The translations under genes were made by a program, and so were the position numbers. A DNA stretch of 47,472 nt, taken from positions 1 through 47,472 of the forward strand of contig NZ_QNHG01000004.1 in the NCBI RefSeq assembly GCF_003290025.1, read 5' to 3'. Numbering within the stretch: the stretch's first letter is position 1; each line of letters starts with the position of its first letter. Source of the stretch: Pseudogemmobacter bohemicus. Lineage in GTDB: Bacteria; Pseudomonadota; Alphaproteobacteria; Rhodobacterales; Rhodobacteraceae. The notes beneath the pieces were generated by a model. It searched no databases, was not told where the DNA came from, and worked only from the letters and a program-made list of their open reading frames with translations. Of the stretch, positions 1 to 9,950 are shown piece after piece.

Positions 1-282
1 GGGCTGGTGTGGTCTCATCTCGCCGACCACTAAGACCTTCGCCGACATGCAGGCATGGGTGCTTAATTCGTGTGAGACCTTTGACCCCCTCAAAGTGAAC
101 CCAGCCTCCTCTCGGCATCCCAACGCTTACGATCGGCGCGCCGCAAATTGGGCAGGCCCGCCTAAAGAAGGAGTTCTTGCTGCGTGCCTGATCGCCTCGA
201 ACAGCCCAACTGCCACGCACAGAGATCGTCAGTCCCGTCCGCAATCGGCGGGCGTGAGCTTTCCGATAATACCACCGATCTG

Positions 283-3200
283 TCATCCAAGCCCCCTTCG
301 TTCCTCCACCCGACTGCCACTCGGCGTCGAACGCACGTAGAATCCCTGAGGAATCGCCTCTTGCACCAAACCGACGTGGGAGATCAGACCCACCGACCGG
401 CTGCCTACGGTCAGTTCTGCAAGAACCTGAAGCACCTGATCGAGTGTCCCGGCGCCATTCTCGGTATCGAGACTGCCGAATCCTTCATCGATGAAAATAG
501 TGTCCATCCGCACCTTGCCCGACAGGCTTTCGACCACATCGGCAAGCCCGAGCGCCAGAGCCAGCGCCGAGATGAAGGTCTCGCCCCCCGACAGGGTGGC
601 CGTTGGGCGCGCCTTGCCGGTATTGATATCGAACACATCGATCCCAAGCCCGCGCTTGCCCCGCCCGCCCGCGCCTTCGGCCGCGCGCTCCAGCCGATAG
701 CGGCCGCGCGTCATCGGATCGAGCCGCATATTCGCCGCCTCCAGCACCTGATCGAACATGGCCGCAATGGCAAAGGTCTCCAGCGTCATGTTGAAATCAT
801 TCTTGCCATTGGCCAGATCGGCCAATCCCCGCAGCGGGCCGGTCCCTGCCTCCAGCGCCTCGGTTGCGGCAAGCGCATCGGCCAGCGAGCCCTTGAAATC
901 CGTCAAGCCCTCGACCGCCGTCTCCGCCTCGGCCAATGCGGTCATCGCCGCCCTTACCCGCTCCGCCGCCGCCGCTTGCACCTGCATCAACTGCCCAAGA
1001 TCGGGGCGGTCACAGCCCTCGCAATCGGCCTTGGCATTCTGCAGGGTCGTGCGCGCCGCGATCAGCCCCTCCTCATGGTCACGCACCGCCTTGCGGTCAT
1101 CGCCAAGCGTCGGGAAATGCAGCTTGCAGGCAGCATAGCCCGCCTCATACAGCCCAACATCATGCAGGCGGGCGGTGAAATCAGCCTGCGCCCGCGCCGC
1201 CCGCCCGGTTTGGGCCTCTTGCATCCGCTGTGCCGCCGCAAGCTGCTCCTGCGCCCGGGTCAGCGCCTCGGCAGCGGCGCGATCCCGCTCTGCCGCCCGA
1301 ACCAGAGCCTCGGCAAGCCGGGTTTCTTCCCCCTGCAAAGCCGCCCGCCGGCCTGCCACGGCCTCGGGCGTGCGCAGCCCCTCGGGCAGTGCATCCACCA
1401 CCGTATCGCGCCGCGCCGCCGCCCCGGCCAAGGCCTGCGCCGCCGTGTTGGCGCCGGTCCGGGCCGTGGTCGTGGCCGTCTCGGCCTGCGTAAGCTTTTG
1501 TTTCAGATCGGCAAGCCGCGCCGCCATCGCCCCAAGATCGAGCGCCGCGCCGATCGCCGTCAGCGCCGCGTCCAGCCGCGCCTTGTCAGCCTCAAGCTCT
1601 GCCAAGGGCCGCGCCGGCCGGTCCAACTCGGCCAGCGCCTGCCGCTTTTCCTCACAAGAGCGCCGGCAATTCGCCAGCTCGGTCTCGGCGCGCACCTTGG
1701 CTTCGGCGGCTGATCGAGCCGCCGTCTGCGCCTTGCGAAAGGCCTCGGTCAGACCGGATTGTTCCGGGCTGCCCTGCGCCGGTGCGGGGTGATCCGTGCC
1801 GCCACAGACTGGACAGGGTGCGCCCTCGGCCAGCTTTTCGGCCAGAATGATCGCCTGCGTGCGCGCCAGCCGCGCCTCGGCCTCGGTCAGGGCAGTCTCA
1901 GCCGCGTCAGTATCGGCAATCCGCGCCGCCAGATCGCCCGCCGCCGCATCGATCCGGCCTTCGGCCTCGGCCACCGCAGCCGTGGCCTTGGACAGCGCAG
2001 CGGCCCGTGCCAATTCATGGCCCAATCCCGCCAGCTCCGCCGTCAGCTGACCGCGGCTGGCCTCGGCCCGGCGCGCCTGCTCCAGCGCCAGATCGGCGGC
2101 GTCGCGCTGCGCCAGCAGGGATTCACGCCCGGCCTCGGCCATGGTCAGCGCCTGTGTCGCCTTGGCCGCATCCTCGCTGGCCCGCTCAAACGCCGCCTGA
2201 AAATCGGCCGCCTGCCCGACCTTTACCCCAACCTCTTGCAAAAGCGTCAGATCGGCCTGCACCGCGCGCAGCCTCTCCTCGCCGGCCCGCGCCTCCTCCA
2301 GCCGCTGCCCCGCAACATCCCGCGCCTGCCTGGCGGTTTCCAGATCCGCCGCCGCCATGGTGACCGATGCCACCGCATCGCGGCTGGCCGCTGCCGCATC
2401 ATGCCATGCAGTTTCCAGATCCCGCGCCTGCAGCGCATTGCTGACGGTCTCGACCCGCTTTTCCAGCTGGCCGATCACCGCCGCCTTCGCCTCCAGATCC
2501 TCCAGCGCCTTGCGCGCCCCATCCGCCGCGACAAAGGCCTTTTCAAGCCTTTCACCCTCGGCCAGAGCCGCCCGCGCCGACAGCTGCGCCGCATCCTCGG
2601 CCTGTTGCCGGTCCCGCGCCTCCTCGACCCGGGCCGTGGCTGTGGTGATGCCGATCTCCAGCGCCTCGGCGCTTTCAAAGCCGCGCTCGATCAGCCGCGC
2701 CAGATAGAGCGCGCGTTGCTCCCGCAGCGCCCGTTCCGCCTGCGCAGCCTCATCCTTCAGCCGCGCGGCAAGGTCGCGATAGATCTTCACATCGAAAAGC
2801 TCGCGCAGGATCTCAACCCGGGCATCGGTTTTCGCCGCCAGAAAGGTCTCGAACCGGCCCTGCGGCAACAGCACGATCTGGCGAAACTGATCCGGCCCAT
2901 AGCCCAACAGCTCGCGCAACTGCTTGTCGACGACCGAGACCTTTTTCTCGGCCAGAACCCGGCCCGATTGCCCCTGCCCGATCAGATCAGGCGCGATCCC
3001 CGTCACATCGAACAGCGCCGCCTCGGCCGCATCGGCGGTCATCCCGGCGCCGCGCGCCTTGGGTCGCTCCTGCGCCGGGCGGCGGCGGATCAGATAGCTT
3101 TTGGCACCCAGTTCGAACAGGAATTCCACCTCGGTGGGCAGATCCGCCGCCGCATGGTCCGACCGCAGCGAGCGCGGCTCCTGATCGGCCTTGGTCGGCG

Positions 3201-3363
3201 CGCCGAACAGGGCAAAGACCATCGCCGAAAACAGCGTCGATTTGCCCGCCCCGGTCTGGCCATAGATCCCGAACAGCCCGGTTTCGAGCGCGGATCGGAA
3301 ATCGACGATTTCGGTGGTCGCAAAGGGGCCAAAGGCTTGCAGCGTCAGGCGGATCGGTCTCAT
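283..3363 (-). CDS. sbcC: SbcC, ATPase subunit of the SbcCD nuclease
   Basis: This 1026-residue protein is an SMC-like ATPase. It works with SbcD to open and cleave DNA hairpins and blocked double-strand ends in the cytoplasm. The N-terminal Walker A is GQTGAGKST at residues 35-43. Long Ala/Glu/Arg-rich coiled-coil arms flank a zinc hook, CPVC at 517-520. The C-terminal half-ATPase carries the LSGGE signature at about 924-928 and a Walker B FIDEGFG near 955. Length and domain order match the family. The start is the ATG that overlaps the sbcD stop as ATGA (4 bases), so the two genes are translationally coupled. A long antisense reading frame lies over this gene, caused by GC-rich codon bias. 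Function comes from family knowledge; the motifs are directly visible. Confidence 0.97.
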   Translation of the reverse strand: MRPIRLTLQAFGPFATTEIVDFRSALETGLFGIYGQTGAGKSTLFSAMVFALFGAPTKADQEPRSLRSDHAAADLPTEVEFLFELGAKSYLIRRRPAQERPKARGAGMTADAAEAALFDVTGIAPDLIGQGQSGRVLAEKKVSVVDKQLRELLGYGPDQFRQIVLLPQGRFETFLAAKTDARVEILRELFDVKIYRDLAARLKDEAAQAERALREQRALYLARLIERGFESAEALEIGITTATARVEEARDRQQAEDAAQLSARAALAEGERLEKAFVAADGARKALEDLEAKAAVIGQLEKRVETVSNALQARDLETAWHDAAAASRDAVASVTMAAADLETARQARDVAGQRLEEARAGEERLRAVQADLTLLQEVGVKVGQAADFQAAFERASEDAAKATQALTMAEAGRESLLAQRDAADLALEQARRAEASRGQLTAELAGLGHELARAAALSKATAAVAEAEGRIDAAAGDLAARIADTDAAETALTEAEARLARTQAIILAEKLAEGAPCPVCGGTDHPAPAQGSPEQSGLTEAFRKAQTAARSAAEAKVRAETELANCRRSCEEKRQALAELDRPARPLAELEADKARLDAALTAIGAALDLGAMAARLADLKQKLTQAETATTTARTGANTAAQALAGAAARRDTVVDALPEGLRTPEAVAGRRAALQGEETRLAEALVRAAERDRAAAEALTRAQEQLAAAQRMQEAQTGRAARAQADFTARLHDVGLYEAGYAACKLHFPTLGDDRKAVRDHEEGLIAARTTLQNAKADCEGCDRPDLGQLMQVQAAAAERVRAAMTALAEAETAVEGLTDFKGSLADALAATEALEAGTGPLRGLADLANGKNDFNMTLETFAIAAMFDQVLEAANMRLDPMTRGRYRLERAAEGAGGRGKRGLGIDVFDINTGKARPTATLSGGETFISALALALGLADVVESLSGKVRMDTIFIDEGFGSLDTENGAGTLDQVLQVLAELTVGSRSVGLISHVGLVQEAIPQGFYVRSTPSGSRVEERRGLG

Positions 3364-4493
3364 GGCTGGTCCTCGGCCTCGGCGGCGTGTAACCTGTCGG
3401 CGGCAAGCGCCAGTTCGGCGGCATCGGGCGCCCTGCCCCGCATCGCCGCCAGAAAATCGCCAACCATATCAATGGGCGGGATCGCCGCCCGCCCTGCCCT
3501 CAAAGCCCGGGTTTCCGGCGCGCGCGCCTGCCGCGCATAGGCAAGATGGCAGGCATTGGGATAGACCGCGCGCAGCCGCTTCATCGGATCGATCAGCGGC
3601 GTCTCATCGCTCAGGATCGCCTGAATCAAATCCTCAGACGGGGTGCCGGCCAAAAGTTCGGCAAAGCTCCCGGTCAATGAGCGCACCTGCCGCTGCGGGC
3701 GAAACGGCACGGTGCGGATATCGCACCCTTGGGCATGCAGATCGACGATGGTCATGGATTTCTCCTGCCCCGCCTCATCAAAGCCAAAGGCCAGCGGCGC
3801 CCCGGAATAGCGGATATGGCGCGCACCCACCTCTTGTGGCTTGTGCAAATGGCCGAGCGCGACGTAATCGGCGCCCGCAAACACCTCGGCCGGCACGGTT
3901 TCAATACCGCCAACCCGGGTCAGGGCGCGTTCGGCCTCACCAACCGCCCCGCCGGCGACAAAGGCATGCGCAACCACCACCCAGCGCGCGCCCTCCGGCA
4001 CCTGCGCCCGGGCGGCAGCGATCTGGGCCGCGATCACATCTGCGGGCGTGCTGATGCTTTCATCGCCGAACAGTTCGCGTGCGGCATATTCATAGGAAAA
4101 CGCCAATGCCGAAAAGGCGACCTTGCCCTGCGCATCCTCCAGCACCAGGGGCGCCTCCACCCGCTCGGCAATCCCGCGCACCAGCACCCGCGCGGCGGTC
4201 GAAAAGACCGACATCGCCTCGATCCGGTCGCCGGAATCGTGATTTCCTGAGATCATCACCACGGCGGCGTCTGTCTTTTCTGCGACCCGTTTGAGAAACC
4301 GGTTGAACTGGCGGATAGCCGTATTGGGGGGAGAAGCCCGGTCAAACACATCGCCTGCGATCACCAGCACGTCGACCGCTTCAGCCACCAACGTCTCGAC
4401 GACCTGGCTCAGGACGGCCTCATGGTCCTCATCAAGGCTAAGCCCCATGAACTGCCTGCCCAGATGAAGATCTGCCGTGTGAAGTACTCGCAT
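3360..4493 (-). CDS. sbcD: SbcD, nuclease subunit of SbcCD
   Basis: This 377-residue calcineurin-like metallophosphoesterase is the Mn-dependent exo/endonuclease partner of SbcC. The metal-binding motifs are in the expected order: D8-L-H10, GDVFD at 47-51, GNHD at 83-86, the His of VAHAF near 176, and GHLH at 214-217. A capping region follows towards the C terminus. It is the first gene of the leftward sbcDC operon. Its start codon lies 71 bases from the divergently transcribed WYL-regulator gene, so the two share one short promoter region. This gene marks the left edge of the accessory block. Confidence 0.96.
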   Translation of the reverse strand: MRVLHTADLHLGRQFMGLSLDEDHEAVLSQVVETLVAEAVDVLVIAGDVFDRASPPNTAIRQFNRFLKRVAEKTDAAVVMISGNHDSGDRIEAMSVFSTAARVLVRGIAERVEAPLVLEDAQGKVAFSALAFSYEYAARELFGDESISTPADVIAAQIAAARAQVPEGARWVVVAHAFVAGGAVGEAERALTRVGGIETVPAEVFAGADYVALGHLHKPQEVGARHIRYSGAPLAFGFDEAGQEKSMTIVDLHAQGCDIRTVPFRPQRQVRSLTGSFAELLAGTPSEDLIQAILSDETPLIDPMKRLRAVYPNACHLAYARQARAPETRALRAGRAAIPPIDMVGDFLAAMRGRAPDAAELALAADRLHAAEAEDQP

Positions 4494-4495
4494 CG

Positions 4496-4570
4496 GTATA
4501 TCCAGTTTCTATACGTGTTGTTACTGTATGGACGTGGCGCGACGAGTCAAGTAGTCTTAGCTGTATGGAC
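4496..4570 (+). promoter_or_regulatory. Repeats in the sbcD/WYL divergent promoter
   Basis: An inverted repeat GTATA (4496-4500) / TATAC (4510-4514) is separated by nine bases. A 10-base direct repeat CTGTATGGAC occurs at 4524-4533 and again at 4561-4570, the second copy spanning the ATG of the WYL gene. BrxR/CapW-type repressors often autoregulate through sites in their own promoters, so one of these could be the operator. That is inference; only the repeats are seen. Confidence 0.4.
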
Positions 4571-5356
4571 CTTGAATCTCTCAATCACGCGCAGCGCGAA
4601 CGGATCCTGTTTCTGGATCAATGCCTTACGTGGAAAGGTCAGGCTAACCGCCGGGACTTGATGGATCGCTTTGACATTTCCACAGCGCAGGCGGCCGTCG
4701 ACTTTCGAACCTATCTGTCGCTGACCCAGACACCTCCAGTCTATGATTCGACTGCGAAGGCCTATTTCTCGAACGACGAACACAGTCCGTTGTCTGATGT
4801 CAGCACCGAGCAGGTCTTTGACCTGCTCAAGGAAAAGAGCTCCCATCTCGAAGCAAGCATCCCGCTGCCCAATCGCGTCATGGACTCCGCCGTCGTCGCC
4901 CAGCTCTACCGCGCGATGGCACGCGAGAGAGATATCCAGATCACTTACACCTCAATGAACAGTGGGCTCTCCGAACCGCAATGGATCAGTCCGACACGGT
5001 TTCACTTCGACGGAGAATCCATTCATCTCAGAGCTTGGAGCCATAAGCATGGGGAATACCGTGATTATCTCCCGATCAGAATATTGAAAAAAGATAATAT
5101 TGTAACGCGAGACAGGTCTTCACCGCTACCGTTTGACACGGAGTGGAACCAATTTGTGCGCTTGCGGATAGGCCCGCGTTCGGGACTCTCTGACGCGCAG
5201 GCTCGGGTCGTCCGGCTGGAGTACGGATTTCCGGAGAAGACACACATCACAATTGAAACACGAAAGGCCCTAGTGTTCTACGTTAGAAGGCGGTGGCGCC
5301 TCGATGACGATAGGGCTCGACTCCAGCTGGCGCGCATCGAAGAAGTAGATGTGTGA
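4565..5356 (+). CDS. WYL-domain transcriptional regulator, BrxR/CapW-like
   Basis: This 263-residue protein has the layout of defence-island WYL repressors. A winged helix-turn-helix occupies about residues 8-70 (RRDLMDRFDISTAQAAVDFRTY is recognition-helix-like). A linker follows, then a WYL-type Sm-fold at about 115-180, including HLRAWSHKHGEYRDYLPIRI. A C-terminal WCX-like region lies at about 190-263. Family members repress CBASS, BREX or other defence operons and probably sense a nucleic-acid ligand. It points away from sbcD and converges on the Gabija-like pair, whose stop lies 151 bases downstream. It is therefore not in the same transcript but is a plausible regulator of the block. The downstream sequence is AT-richer than sbcDC, consistent with transfer. 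The target genes are unknown. Confidence 0.8.
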   Translation: MDLESLNHAQRERILFLDQCLTWKGQANRRDLMDRFDISTAQAAVDFRTYLSLTQTPPVYDSTAKAYFSNDEHSPLSDVSTEQVFDLLKEKSSHLEASIPLPNRVMDSAVVAQLYRAMARERDIQITYTSMNSGLSEPQWISPTRFHFDGESIHLRAWSHKHGEYRDYLPIRILKKDNIVTRDRSSPLPFDTEWNQFVRLRIGPRSGLSDAQARVVRLEYGFPEKTHITIETRKALVFYVRRRWRLDDDRARLQLARIEEVDV

Positions 5357-5482
5357 GAGTGCATATTTTTGCCCAGCCGGAAAACGAAAATGGCCGCGCA
5401 AGTTCTACGGATGCACCTCTTTAAAACAAGAAAATACGCACATGATCAGGCAGTAAGGAGTGCCGTTAGCATAGAGGTAGCT

Positions 5483-5499
5483 CCGGAAACATGTTCCGG
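5483..5499. terminator. Possible hairpin between convergent genes
   Basis: Arms CCGGAA (5483-5488) and TTCCGG (5494-5499) enclose a five-base loop. It sits between the convergent WYL and helicase genes, where a bidirectional terminator would be expected. The stem is short and no clear T-tract follows, so this is weak. Confidence 0.3.
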
Positions 5500-5507
5500 C
5501 GATTTCC

Positions 5508-6647
5508 CTATTCGAATACAGTAAATCCTGCTAGAACTTCGCCATCTGTGGGGTCATAGACCACTGCCACCGCATGCCTGGCGCGGGTGAGGCCAACATA
5601 AAGTTTTGCGCGAGTTTCAGCCTTCAATGCCGATTTGTCATTCTTCAGCCAGTTCATCATTTCTTTAGTGGGATAGATAATTACGCGATCGAAGCCGAGG
5701 CCCTTGGACCGTCCAAACGTTAGGGTCGGCAGATTGGCAGATTCAATCTTTACGGTTGAACTCCATCGGAGTTGTACCGGGCGCCTCGACTCGAGATAGC
5801 GGGGCAGATCCTTTGGCCGAACGATAACAAGGCCCGCATCTACAGGGACCGGTCGTCTACAGTCGGGACATTTGCAGGCGGTCGCAGCAGCCAATTTTGG
5901 ATAGAGCTTCGACGATAGTTCGCAGATGGCAGCGCTATTGCGGTGCGATGTCACGAGGCTGGTCACATCGACTTCGCAAGCGATTTTTCGGGGGAGTTCC
6001 TCCCGAATGAAGTCAGTAATACCGCCGTCCCTGTACTTTTTGAAACGGGCCTCCAGATGAGTGACATAGGTGACCTGTCGGGGATCACCTACCATGACGA
6101 CGGTAGCAGCACTTCTGAAAAGTTCCATCAAAATGTCGAGGTCGTGACCCGCCAGATCCTGCACCTCATCCACGAAAATAAACGGATAAATACGGGAAAG
6201 CCGCTCGATAACAGCGCCGTCCGATACCTCGTTACACCGTATCGTCAGTCTTGACAGTTTGTCGGAATAGACGCGATTTCGACGATCGAAGTAGCAGTGC
6301 CTGAAATCTTTTTCACCCCAATACATGGGGCGGCCTTGCCGATCCCTCCCGCGGAAACCGGATCTCTGTGAAACCAGAACCATGCCGCCGACATCCCAAT
6401 CGAACAACCCACCTTGAAAGGGCTTGATGCCGTGCTCGATCAGTAGACTGAACCAAGTCTGGATATGCACATTGCCCGGCACTGAGCCGTGGATCTCGAA
6501 AAATTTGCGCCGAATCTCTTCTTCGTTCGATTCTGTGTAGGTGGTGATGAGGACACGCTTTTGTCCAACCGCAAGCGCCTGCCTAACGAGGTAGGTAGTT
6601 TTCCCGGAGCCTGCAGCAGCTATGACGAGCTTATTGGTACCGATCAT
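5508..6647 (-). CDS. Gabija-like GajB, UvrD-family helicase (short form)
   Basis: This is a superfamily 1 helicase of 379 residues if started at the ATG that overlaps the gajA stop (TAATG, one base shared). The frame stays open 24 codons further upstream, but that part lies inside gajA, and the coupled start places the protein just ahead of Walker A. Visible motifs: AAGSGKTT at 11-18 (I), FVDEVQDL at 158-165 (II), MVGDPRQ at 185-191 (III), TSHRN at 233-237 (IV), FGRSKGLGFD at 311-320 (V) and LYVGLTRARHA at 349-359 (VI). A Cys cluster, CKCPDC at 258-263, lies between motifs IV and V. In Gabija the partner senses nucleotides or DNA ends and activates the GajA nuclease. This copy is shorter than the roughly 490-residue reference GajB, so part of the 1B/2B subdomains is reduced or missing. 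Confidence 0.82.
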   Translation of the reverse strand: MIGTNKLVIAAAGSGKTTYLVRQALAVGQKRVLITTYTESNEEEIRRKFFEIHGSVPGNVHIQTWFSLLIEHGIKPFQGGLFDWDVGGMVLVSQRSGFRGRDRQGRPMYWGEKDFRHCYFDRRNRVYSDKLSRLTIRCNEVSDGAVIERLSRIYPFIFVDEVQDLAGHDLDILMELFRSAATVVMVGDPRQVTYVTHLEARFKKYRDGGITDFIREELPRKIACEVDVTSLVTSHRNSAAICELSSKLYPKLAAATACKCPDCRRPVPVDAGLVIVRPKDLPRYLESRRPVQLRWSSTVKIESANLPTLTFGRSKGLGFDRVIIYPTKEMMNWLKNDKSALKAETRAKLYVGLTRARHAVAVVYDPTDGEVLAGFTVFE

Positions 6648-8275
6648 TAAGCGATCGCATCCAGAATATACTTTGGGTAAGTTATTGTCGTCTCCGTCGA
6701 AAAAATCTTCAGTGCGCACTCGGTCTTGTTGTTCTTCATATAACGATGAAGATTATCGATATTGTGCTTGGTACCGAACAGCGTATTGAGGATCTCTAAG
6801 CTATTAGACTTGACCAGCTTAGGCTCGAGGGTGTTATAGTTGAAGGGCTTGCCGTTGAGGATGAGGTCGCCCTTATCCTCAATAGGATCGTAGCAGATCT
6901 TAATATGATCGATATCCTTATATTTGGAGTATTTCTTTTCAAGCGCAGCAACATCCCCGTCATTGTCGGTCGCGACCACGACGGGGATCTTCAATGCCGT
7001 CGCCAGTTCGAGAAAACGCAGGAATGTAAGTCCGACCGAGATGACGTCGATCTCGTCGTCAATCGGCAGTCTTCCCCCGTTGGCATCCATATAGGCACGT
7101 TGAACGACCAGCTCGTCCGCATCGCCCTCGACAAGGATCGATTTCTTAGACAGCACGAGACGCAAAGTGTCGTAACCTGGGAGCTTGTGAAAGAAATCGC
7201 TCGCCTCTAGATCCTTGATCCGTGCGACCTTCGATTCCCGCAGCAATATCAGATGGTCCAGTCCGAGTTTATTCGCAACGAAACTGCTATGTGTGGTGAT
7301 GATAATCTGCTTGCCGCTATTGTCGGTATTGATATCGCTGATGAGCTGGTTGAGCTTTGAGTGCGACAGGTGGTTTTCCGGCTCTTCGATCAGCAGTACT
7401 ATCGCTTCACGGTTCTTCTTGCTGCTCAGCGCAAGGCGCGTCTTGACGATGCACTGCTCGCCCTTTCCGATATAGTGGAAAGGGACATCCTCGATAAACG
7501 TCATGAGGCTGTTTTCCCAGGCATTATGGGACGACATGTCGACCGCAATGCTAACCCTTTTCCGGCTGATCTTCGCTGCCTCTGCCAGTCTCTCATTGAT
7601 AGCGCCCACATTGCCATCGGCCTTAAATGCATCTTTCAGCTTGCGATGAGCTTGGGATATCGCAACACGTTCCTTGTCGTCCAGAAACTCTTTGACGATG
7701 CGTGAGATGTACATATCCGAACCGCTCTGCACACGTGTGCTCGTTGAATCGATGAGGGCCGACTTGATAGGAATGGTGCGGGCCATCGCCGGTTGACGGG
7801 AGAATTCAGACCATTGTACCTGATAGAATTCCAAGGGTATCGAGCTAATCTCCTGGCTCTTCATCATTTCGGAATATGCATCATCATACTTATTATCGAA
7901 CTCAATTGAGAAGAGTAGGCCGCGAGCCTTGTCGTTCTTCTCGGAGTTTCCGTTTCCACGTAAATCTTCCAACACATCGTTATCCCCGCCAAGATACAGT
8001 TCGATCTGGATCTCTGGCGGATCGAGAGGTTTCTTTGCAGCAACGCTGTCCAGATAGGCGCGCTCGGTCCTCCTGTTAAATAGGTATGGAGATAGTTCGT
8101 TTCGAATATACTTTCCATTCAGCATACCCGTCAGACATAGATGAATCGCTTCCAGCAGCGTTGATTTTCCGGCCTCATTGTTGCCCACAATGATGTTGAC
8201 GCCCTGATTAAAATCAACTTCGAACCAACCTTCAAAGCATTTGAAATTCCTGATCTTGACCTTATCGATGTACAT
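6647..8275 (-). CDS. Gabija-like GajA, OLD-family ATPase with TOPRIM nuclease
   Basis: This 542-residue protein has an ABC-type ATPase half: Walker A GNNEAGKST at 31-39, a signature-like GKGEQ at 270-274, Walker B VLLIEEPE at 293-300, and the switch His in TTHS near 327-330. A C-terminal TOPRIM domain follows, with VEGDADE (Glu383) and TDNDGD (Asp437/Asp439/Asp441). This is the class 2 OLD architecture, and its adjacency to a UvrD-like helicase is the hallmark of Gabija anti-phage systems, where GajA nicks phage DNA when nucleotide pools fall. All catalytic residues appear intact. The gene follows a 423-base non-coding stretch with stacked palindromes and is coupled to gajB through TAATG. Assignment to Gabija rather than another OLD/helicase pair is inferred from architecture. 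Confidence 0.87.
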   Translation of the reverse strand: MYIDKVKIRNFKCFEGWFEVDFNQGVNIIVGNNEAGKSTLLEAIHLCLTGMLNGKYIRNELSPYLFNRRTERAYLDSVAAKKPLDPPEIQIELYLGGDNDVLEDLRGNGNSEKNDKARGLLFSIEFDNKYDDAYSEMMKSQEISSIPLEFYQVQWSEFSRQPAMARTIPIKSALIDSTSTRVQSGSDMYISRIVKEFLDDKERVAISQAHRKLKDAFKADGNVGAINERLAEAAKISRKRVSIAVDMSSHNAWENSLMTFIEDVPFHYIGKGEQCIVKTRLALSSKKNREAIVLLIEEPENHLSHSKLNQLISDINTDNSGKQIIITTHSSFVANKLGLDHLILLRESKVARIKDLEASDFFHKLPGYDTLRLVLSKKSILVEGDADELVVQRAYMDANGGRLPIDDEIDVISVGLTFLRFLELATALKIPVVVATDNDGDVAALEKKYSKYKDIDHIKICYDPIEDKGDLILNGKPFNYNTLEPKLVKSNSLEILNTLFGTKHNIDNLHRYMKNNKTECALKIFSTETTITYPKYILDAIA

Positions 8276-8331
8276 TGTTCATCCCACTTCCCACGAGATA
8301 ACCATAGCTTACTCCAAACAAATAGGTGATC

Positions 8332-8381
8332 CAGAATGATTAATTATTCTGCACTGATAGTGCGGCGGAGATCTAGCCGCC
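8332..8381. repeat. Three stacked palindromes upstream of gajA
   Basis: Three inverted repeats follow each other within 50 bases. They are CAGAAT-8 bases-ATTCTG (8332-8351, with a near-palindromic centre), GCACT-GAT-AGTGC (8351-8363), and GGCGG-8 bases-CCGCC (8364-8381). They begin 57 bases upstream of the gajA start, in its promoter or leader. They could be operators, a structured leader, or a terminator for the upstream gene; the sequence alone does not decide. Confidence 0.55.
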
Positions 8382-8698
8382 CTTTTCCCTCGTTTTTCAG
8401 TCACGAGCAAAGCGCGCTCTCGGCCTCGCCGGAATGCATTTCCTTCTTGCCGTTCATTACCCATGCTGACAAAGCGACACTCTTCCTCGGTGGTCGCTCA
8501 TCATAGATGAAAGCTTTAAGGAAATACGCTTGCCCTGCACGTTCTGGTCACCCACACAGCAGCTCCCCTCGTTGCTCCTGAGATTAGATCTGAAGCATCG
8601 AACCACCGTAAAGTTCCCAAACATTAGTTGATTAGTCCGACCCCAACACAACACCAGACTAGAAGGATCTTAACGCAAGGATAGTAAACATTAGCCAA
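8382..8698. other. Gene-free stretch between the PLD-like gene and gajA
   Basis: No convincing coding region is visible. A 65-codon leftward frame (8457-8654) has no recognisable domain, ribosome site or conserved composition. The stretch is AT-richer than the flanking core genome and probably holds the gajA promoter and leader. Confidence 0.5.
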
Positions 8699-9355
8699 TC
8701 AGCTCCTAGAACCGACCGGCCTGAGGCATAAATCTCTCAACTCCGACATTACAGAGATCACATCATAATCAGGCAAGTCCATCATGGCGAAGAACTTAGA
8801 ACCAAAGCCGCCAAAAGATGTTCCTATCACCCTACCTTCCGTACCATCCTTAATAATAAATCTATCGTGCAGTTTATCTGAGCTAAAGTGTCTAATATTT
8901 CTTCCACCCTTCAACTTTCCCATAACGCATTTGCGAACAGGCGACGAATAGCTATTGCTGAATATGTCAATGTGTCTCGCGCTTGCGGGAAGGATCTCCG
9001 CCAGTCCATCGGCATACTCTTCTATTGTTTTGAAAAGCTGAGATGGTTTGAAATGAAGAAAGTATGGGTCGCAGATTGTTATCTTATTCGCACCTTTGAG
9101 CCAGTCCTTGAGATCTAAAATGCCATTTCTTGCAGAACTCACGTCTCCCCGAATGATAAGGTGCATAAAGGGGGATTCTTTTTCATCACCGTCTTTGCAA
9201 CCTTCAAGTGCCCCTTCCAGACTTTCCGAAAGACTCAAGAGCGCAGACTTATACTCCGCATTATTGATAAATGAATTTGAAACCTCGCCACTCTCTAAAA
9301 GCCCTCTCCATATAGAGACCTGGACTAAACAGCTTTGAACTAGCGCCCTATCCAT
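8699..9355 (-). CDS. Uncharacterised PLD-like protein next to the Gabija-like pair
   Basis: This 218-residue protein is of no family I can name with certainty. The N-terminal half (1-85) is helical with an acidic patch (GCKDGDEKE near 52-60). The second half resembles a single phospholipase-D-like domain. It has KITICDPYFLHF at about 91-102 and HDRFIIKDG at 163-171, where an HKD-type His would sit, followed by the glycine-rich GTSFGGFGSK at 178-187. A strict HxK motif is not present, so catalysis is unproven. It may be a nuclease, or an inactive effector or regulator. It is transcribed in the same direction as gajA and gajB and lies 423 bases upstream. Its AT-rich codon use matches theirs rather than sbcDC. 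It could be an accessory of the defence locus or an independent defence gene. Confidence 0.6.
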   Translation of the reverse strand: MDRALVQSCLVQVSIWRGLLESGEVSNSFINNAEYKSALLSLSESLEGALEGCKDGDEKESPFMHLIIRGDVSSARNGILDLKDWLKGANKITICDPYFLHFKPSQLFKTIEEYADGLAEILPASARHIDIFSNSYSSPVRKCVMGKLKGGRNIRHFSSDKLHDRFIIKDGTEGRVIGTSFGGFGSKFFAMMDLPDYDVISVMSELRDLCLRPVGSRS

Positions 9356-9950
9356 ACCGCTCCCACTCCCATCTTCGGAGGCTTCCTTGCTGTAGCATTT
9401 AATTTCGAAACATAATCTTCAAATAGTATGAAGCCTTTTCCCTTCAAGGAGCCGAAACTCTATGGCTGTGCCGCACTTTATCAGAGATGATCACTTGATC
9501 AAGCAGCCCTCAGCGCCATTGGGAGGGGCAATGGAAGGCTCACGCCCACCCTTCGGGTCAGTGGTTGTCTTGTTGGGCGATGACAGCGAACGGCAGCTAC
9601 GTCCCGTATCTCTACCATCCTGACCGGGTCTTTGCTGCAGCGCATGACGAATGGCCGCTTCCGGGAATGCGGCCATGCAGCATATGTCGTGGCTGACCGG
9701 CGGCTAAGGGCCGCGCTCGCCTGTCGTGGTGAGCGAAACGGCTGACGGTGCCGAACCTGACAGTTGCTGTGGCGCAGCATGTTGCTCGGAGGCTATACCG
9801 GACCTTTACACTGTGCCTGTGCGCAGCTCGCAAAGCTCCGCGCCAGACCCCGTTGCCCACCTGCCCAAATCGGCCCAACTCAAATTCAGTGTCTCGCTCA
9901 CGCTGGAAAAAAGTTGGGGTCAATGGCACGTTTGCACGAGGATACTGTCA
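9356..9950. other. Gene-free boundary region
   Basis: No supported gene is present. Composition changes here from the AT-rich defence block to GC-rich sequence. Several short overlapping frames on both strands have low-complexity Arg/Ala/Ser translations, typical of non-coding GC-rich DNA or decayed mobile sequence. This is a likely junction between separately acquired segments. Confidence 0.45.

Follow-up and report, generated by a model that had tools for sequence, protein, structure and literature searches.

A Gabija-type gene pair beside a WYL-SbcCD module in Pseudogemmobacter bohemicus, apparently one of several cargos of a variable slot

Gabija, as solved for Bacillus cereus VD045 (GajAB, 8sm3), consists of an OLD ATPase with a TOPRIM domain, followed by a UvrD-like helicase, and SbcCD is a nuclease of the Mre11-Rad50 type. 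Among the WYL-domain regulators, CapW is reportedly released from its operator upon infection. In uninfected cells, it binds palindromes that cover the -10 site of CBASS promoters and represses CBASS (PMC9122588), and 48% of the BrxR homologs studied co-localize with known defense systems (PMC9122601). Neither "SbcC" nor "Gabija" occurs in the main text of these two papers or of PMC9122589, a third WYL paper of 2022, and the titles and abstract openings of the open-access matches listed by our search named neither a WYL-SbcCD pair nor a WYL-controlled Gabija.

The stretch of DNA analyzed here in its full length of 47,472 nucleotides (the window) is G000:C4:1-47472 and therefore begins at the start of its contig; G and L numbers denote genomes and loci, respectively. 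A sequence-only reading had described it as carrying a regulated, possibly three-part Gabija variant. The layout on which this was based proved correct (table 1): the four genes lie beside sbcDC, all four ORFs of the defense region read as intact, the gajA stop and the gajB start overlap by one base in TAATG (read by eye), and GC content is 0.45–0.53 in the 1-kb windows from 4501 to 9500, versus 0.54–0.72 elsewhere except in two edge-straddling 1-kb windows (0.58 and 0.51). Its assignments to Gabija and to the BrxR/CapW family also stand, but no support was found for the roles given to the WYL protein as repressor of this Gabija and to the phospholipase D (PLD)-like protein as its third part. 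We rather think, with a probability of about three in four, that two units lie side by side, a WYL-sbcD-sbcC module and an ordinary Gabija pair, next to an unrelated PLD-like gene. The case corrects a natural misreading, as a WYL regulator adjoining a defense operon need not control that operon.

Table 1. Positions of the genes and sites of the window discussed in the text
Feature	Position	Strand	Evidence or remark
CPxCG-containing small protein, partial third gene of the sbcDC run	2..286	-	leaves contig edge; homolog in 21/32 loci (count includes the window and one partial match)
sbcC, Rad50-like ATPase	283..3363	-	PF13476, PF13558
sbcD, Mre11-like nuclease	3360..4493	-	PF00149, PF12320
Probable WYL operator, imperfect palindrome between WYL gene and sbcD	4506..4523	.	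fixed position in 30 loci
Promoter-like TTGACT-16-TACAGT pointing to sbcD	4523..4550	-	consensus match
WYL regulator, BrxR/CapW family	4565..5356	+	divergent from sbcD, convergent with gajB
gajB, short UvrD-like helicase, 379 aa	5508..6647	-	PADLOC PDLC00148; motifs AAAGSGKTT, DEVQD, GDPRQ, LTRAR
gajA, OLD-family ATPase with TOPRIM domain, 542 aa	6647..8275	-	PADLOC PDLC00102; fold match GajA 8sm3_A
Conserved stretch 5' of gajA, possible own promoter	8276..8346	-	resembles several of 11 relatives
PLD-like protein, rare	8699..9355	-	absent beside Gabija elsewhere in searched loci

The OLD/TOPRIM ATPase and the UvrD-like helicase are a real two-gene Gabija-type pair, as their Pfam domains, their best PADLOC and solved-fold matches, and the coupling of gajA to gajB bear out. 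The best PADLOC model covers residues 1–541 of GajA (E 2.6e-226) and residues 5–368 of GajB (E 2.6e-139), and Pfam recognizes PF13175 and an OLD-like TOPRIM domain (PF20469; 44.2 bits, cut-off 23.2) in the former, and PF13361 and UvrD (PF00580; 50.9 bits, cut-off 23) in the latter. The catalytic motifs of both proteins are intact; E383, D387, E388, D437, and D439, which we take to be the TOPRIM residues, and K37, presumably that of Walker A, are invariant across 25 GajA homologs. A GajA model built from these 25 sequences (mean pLDDT 80.6) has VD045 GajA, 8sm3_A, as its top solved match (E 1e-18, TM 0.53 by query length, 15% identity, rmsd 9.1) and the OLD nuclease 6p74 as its third best. Full confidence is tempered by the sequence searches, as solved GajA was absent from the phmmer (E 0.001) and profile (E 0.01) results for the window GajA, and by the length of GajB. 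The GajB profile reaches solved GajB (8sm3_B) at 2e-9, ranked under several UvrD-type helicases, and the protein has 379 residues versus 493–499 in solved GajB chains; the two best-fitting PADLOC GajB models are likewise short (369 and 365 positions). The pair thus shares domains and gene order with VD045 Gabija but differs from it by its distant GajA and its shorter GajB. In public genomes, GajB was found at E<1e-20 in 60 of 64 GajA loci; among the other four, a contig edge cuts L046, L059, and L061 off within gajA, and L064 yields no more than a fragment match. The GajB alignment comprises 21 of the 25 genomes of the GajA alignment, L055 (stop), L030, L037, and L056 being left out.

The WYL protein contains the WYL domain (PF13280; 30.6 bits, cut-off 21.8), and its matches to solved CapW (7tb6, E 3.5e-28), the WYL protein 7qfz (2.3e-25), and BrxR (7t8k, 2.4e-18) justify the label BrxR/CapW-like. 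Its gene is tied to sbcDC. Within the order, 55 of 292 sampled genomes have some WYL match and 96 some SbcD match, many of them weak. Only 12 contain sbcD at E<1e-90, the next best match being at 3.9e-30, and in 11 of these 12 a WYL gene adjoins sbcD and diverges from it; in the remaining one, G097, no WYL match was found at E<=1. Outside the window's own genome, the ten top-ranking WYL matches coincide with those adjoining sbcDC. On plasmids, an SbcD match lies beside WYL in 37 of the best 40 WYL matches (of 666 records), and conversely the first 37 of the best 40 SbcD matches (of 157 records) have a WYL gene, the last three, from Cupriavidus, having none. The three WYL matches without a listed SbcD, among the best 40 of 666, come from R. 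leguminosarum (two, including L172, in which the sbcD region is broken up) and from Sphingobium JS3065 (L179, with another nuclease pair). We then compared 32 loci picked by WYL match (the window, L112–L121, and L159–L179). WYL and sbcD diverge in 31, with a gap of 70–77 bp in 30 of them. The WYL gene therefore belongs with sbcDC and, by analogy with CapW and BrxR, most likely controls SbcCD rather than Gabija. It resembles these repressors in sequence family, in diverging from its presumed target, and in the palindrome near the presumed -10 site, but the partner across the promoter is sbcDC instead of a CBASS or BREX operon, and any defense genes lie on the other side. Likewise, this SbcCD has the domain set of other Mre11-Rad50 pairs, but it is accessory, often plasmid-borne, and has a WYL gene of its own. 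Pfam gives no match (E 0.01) for the small CPxCG-containing protein at the contig edge. In L117 (G159), there is an in-frame stop within sbcD. L168, L169, L170, L175, and L176, whose WYL proteins are of a divergent type (33–38% identity, tblastn), have a small gene that overlaps the WYL gene at its end; except in L168, the annotation calls its product a WGR domain protein.

The WYL-sbcD intergenic region is itself conserved. GTCAA, the reverse of the -35-like box TTGAC directed toward sbcD, is present in 30 of 30 such regions and ATGGAC in 28; 18 bases ahead of ATGGAC starts a 10-bp palindrome with a mean self-complementarity of 0.80 over the 30 loci, versus 0.40 in the best of 500 single-base shuffles, a contrast that is overstated because the loci are related. 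Its sequence is TATACGTATA in eight relatives whose WYL protein is 70–74% identical to that of the window, and mostly TACACATGTA or TGCACATGTA in seven loci with WYL at 37–42% identity, SbcD being 79–81% identical in both groups. The window itself has TATACGTGTT, with one arm degenerate (6/10); L170 (4/10) and L174 (2/10) have scarcely a palindrome, and L168 and L120 deviate. Operator similarity correlates with WYL similarity when SbcD is controlled for (partial r 0.45; 0 of 2000 permutations as high), and not with SbcD when WYL is controlled for (-0.02). The palindrome thus appears to follow the type of WYL and not SbcD, which could also reflect plain linkage because it adjoins the WYL gene, and we consider it a probable WYL operator on the strength of its sequence and position. 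Promoter-like sites of the kind pointing to sbcD number five in the region, versus 5.2 expected by chance.

On its other side, the WYL gene faces a slot of variable content, which could be read in 30 of the 31 WYL-sbcD loci, L120 stopping at a contig edge. A recognized or PADLOC-candidate defense gene lies beside WYL in 13 of the 30, in a raw count over loci some of which are near relatives. The cargo is Gabija in the window and L112, SIR2-HerA or SIR2 plus an ATP-binding protein in L114, L160, and L175, PADLOC candidates in L116 (PDC-S46), L119 (PDC-S06), and L121 (PDC-S64), a PaeR7I restriction-modification system in L159, BREX genes in L169, AbiEii in L172, and CBASS-like nucleotidyltransferase, ThiF, Mov34, and SAVED genes in L177; in L170, AbiEii comes about 3.6 kb on, past unnamed genes. 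PADLOC covered ten proteins from seven of these loci, and plasmid cargo is named from the record annotation. The slot looks empty in four loci because a conjugation coupling protein gene follows WYL within about 5 bp (L163, L164, and L171 by annotation, L117 by eye), and it holds IS or metabolic genes in three (L162, L166, and L178). Nothing was recognized in the remaining ten of 30 slots (L113, L115, L118, L161, L165, L167, L168, L173, L174, and L176); there is a ParDE pair further along in L161 and a ResIII-type helicase in L113. Some defense-like genes are also found on the sbcC side, such as the TIR genes of L159 and L160. On alphaproteobacterial plasmids, the WYL-SbcCD unit is thus the anchor of a variable slot that often contains defense genes, and the unit itself may be regulated and have a part in defense. 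With the WYL gene accounted for by its link to sbcDC, the adjoining GajAB looks like one cargo among several. In line with this, the nearest GajA relatives (80–90% identity, mostly Rhizobiales) have no WYL-SbcCD unit within the available flanks and adjoin other genes, such as a Qat-type set on plasmids, and the nearest WYL-SbcCD relatives (WYL 70–74%, SbcD 79–81%) have no Gabija within theirs.

By analogy with CapW and BrxR, the palindrome close to the sbcD promoter is most likely occupied by a WYL dimer, which would repress sbcDC and perhaps its own gene until phage infection or DNA damage brings up a ligand for the WYL domain, whereupon the dimer would come off the DNA. This first unit often includes a further small gene. 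The Gabija pair with its short GajB probably entered the variable slot downstream of WYL from a gene pool in which Rhizobiales share, and it is probably expressed from a promoter of its own; as in known Gabija, cutting or nicking of DNA would fall to GajA, partnered by GajB, and the pair would presumably confer protection. Its own promoter may lie in the roughly 70 bp 5' of gajA, which resemble those of L001, L006, L007, and L008 and, to a lesser degree, of L009, L011, and L012; among the 11 relatives compared, the likeness is absent in L002, L005, L010, and L014. Although 8276–8346 gave no consensus promoter match, this conservation points, in some members of the family, to a candidate promoter that travels with gajAB. 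All 11 relatives are devoid of the PLD-like gene, and several with a similar upstream region have neither it nor WYL.

These data bear on the idea, unlikely in our view, that this Gabija has a repressor of its own in the WYL protein, which would reach gajA from afar or via a second site. Profile searches of the 64 public GajA loci, which extend at least 2.5 kb past gajB in 50 cases and before gajA in 59, found a WYL gene in one (L014), and together with the tie of WYL to sbcDC in 11 of 12 genomes this argues against such a role. The picture is nevertheless mixed, since the co-occurrence of WYL and GajA, seen in a single one of these loci from outside the order, is more frequent inside it: of three genomes with strong GajA matches, G000 and G003 have the WYL-gajB-gajA layout and G094 does not, so that a special link between WYL-sbcDC and Gabija is conceivable. 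The layout indeed recurs in a second genus in L112 (G003), with WYL 44%, GajA 38%, and GajB 28% identical to those of the window, and L014 (Nitratireductor) contains a distant WYL gene divergent from an operon-like yhaO-yhaN-gajA-gajB run, which it could therefore govern. In the window, however, the WYL gene and gajB converge, and some 3.7 kb separate the probable operator from the start of gajA. No further operator copy occurs in the window within two mismatches (12-mer) or three mismatches (18-mer), the six other 12-mer matches each having three mismatches and none lying at the gajA start, and the window scan found no WYL-type palindrome 5' of gajA. Moreover, L014 apart, no WYL was seen in the available flanks of close GajA relatives, several of which share the upstream region of gajA. 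Just as improbable seems a recurring functional partnership that joins WYL and Gabija to SbcCD or YhaON, pairs of the Mre11-Rad50 type, which would make or trim the DNA ends on which Gabija acts. An SbcD/YhaO-like gene is present in seven of the 64 GajA loci (L014, L019, L044, L020, L021, L062, and L038; five once L019/L044 and L021/L062 are merged), as well as in the window and in L112 of G003, versus none of 20 arbitrary 18-kb windows from seven genomes of the order, and in L014, L019, and L038 the pair precedes gajA on the same strand at a distance of 11–49 bp, as it also does in L044, judging by the 95% match of that locus to L019. However, most GajA loci are devoid of it, including the four plasmid GajA loci and L122 (G094), as are six loci of more distant WYL matches, and we retain the link as a rival only because such a pair is also carried by one of 14 loci with other OLD-type ATPase matches, so that an excess over such loci is not evident.

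Least probable of all, and to our mind very improbable, is that the PLD-like protein is a third, effector component of Gabija in this lineage. Its gene is on the same strand, 423 bp upstream of gajA, and a stretch conserved in the three PLD-like homologs, LHDRF..KD....G..IGTSFGG, is presumably a variant HKD motif. This motif and weak PADLOC matches (PDC-S05 at 1.5e-5 and 0.0015; NsnC at 0.0013) speak for the PLD-like label, but Pfam gave no match (E 0.1) and NCBIfam VPA1262_N scores 21 bits, far under its cut-off of 80, leaving it weakly supported; a literature search with the PADLOC names NsnA/B/C found no paper, and the single-sequence model (mean pLDDT 47.5) was too poor for a fold search. 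Against a third component, the family is absent from all 64 GajA loci, and among the 292 order and 385 class genomes sampled the gene occurs only in its own. A search of 72,556 plasmids at E 10 found two homologs (45–47% identity), neither beside Gabija and both on repABC plasmids, where they follow repC directly or by about 250 bp (L066, L067); a third row, at E 9, was taken as chance. The co-occurrence test set by the sequence-only reading thus goes against the PLD-like gene as a third part, although with only three homologs in all it is thin. A terminator-like hairpin at 8693–8721 also speaks against it, though such hairpins are no commoner in the region than in shuffles. Relatives of the PLD-like protein were found neither in phages (E 0.01) nor in viral contigs, and WYL was not found in the latter, by a scan that detects close relatives only. 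The gene is a rare, probably unrelated neighbor of Gabija, perhaps of plasmid origin.

Returning to a WYL-sbcDC module flanked by an independent Gabija pair, we tentatively propose, as a possible but doubtful extension, that the WYL-SbcCD unit is a regulated, plasmid-borne immunity or DNA-end-processing system, in which phage attack or incoming foreign DNA would cause a CapW-like sensor to free an accessory nuclease of the Mre11-Rad50 type, and whose downstream slot would collect interchangeable defense systems, Gabija included. With a CapW-like sensor, an accessory SbcCD, and a presumed operator conserved on alphaproteobacterial plasmids, the unit is compact and testable. Because BREX, CBASS-like, SIR2-HerA, restriction-modification, AbiEii, and Gabija genes are already there, the slot beside it may serve as a landmark for finding new defense systems. 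Among the GajA loci, L068, L069, and L070 (Rhizobium and Agrobacterium plasmids) have a Qat-type set about 150 bp from gajA and divergent from it, and a HipA-type toxin gene past gajB. Elsewhere in the window, about 7.3 kb (from about 12.9 to 20.2 kb) match a Paracoccus aminovorans replicon at 92%.
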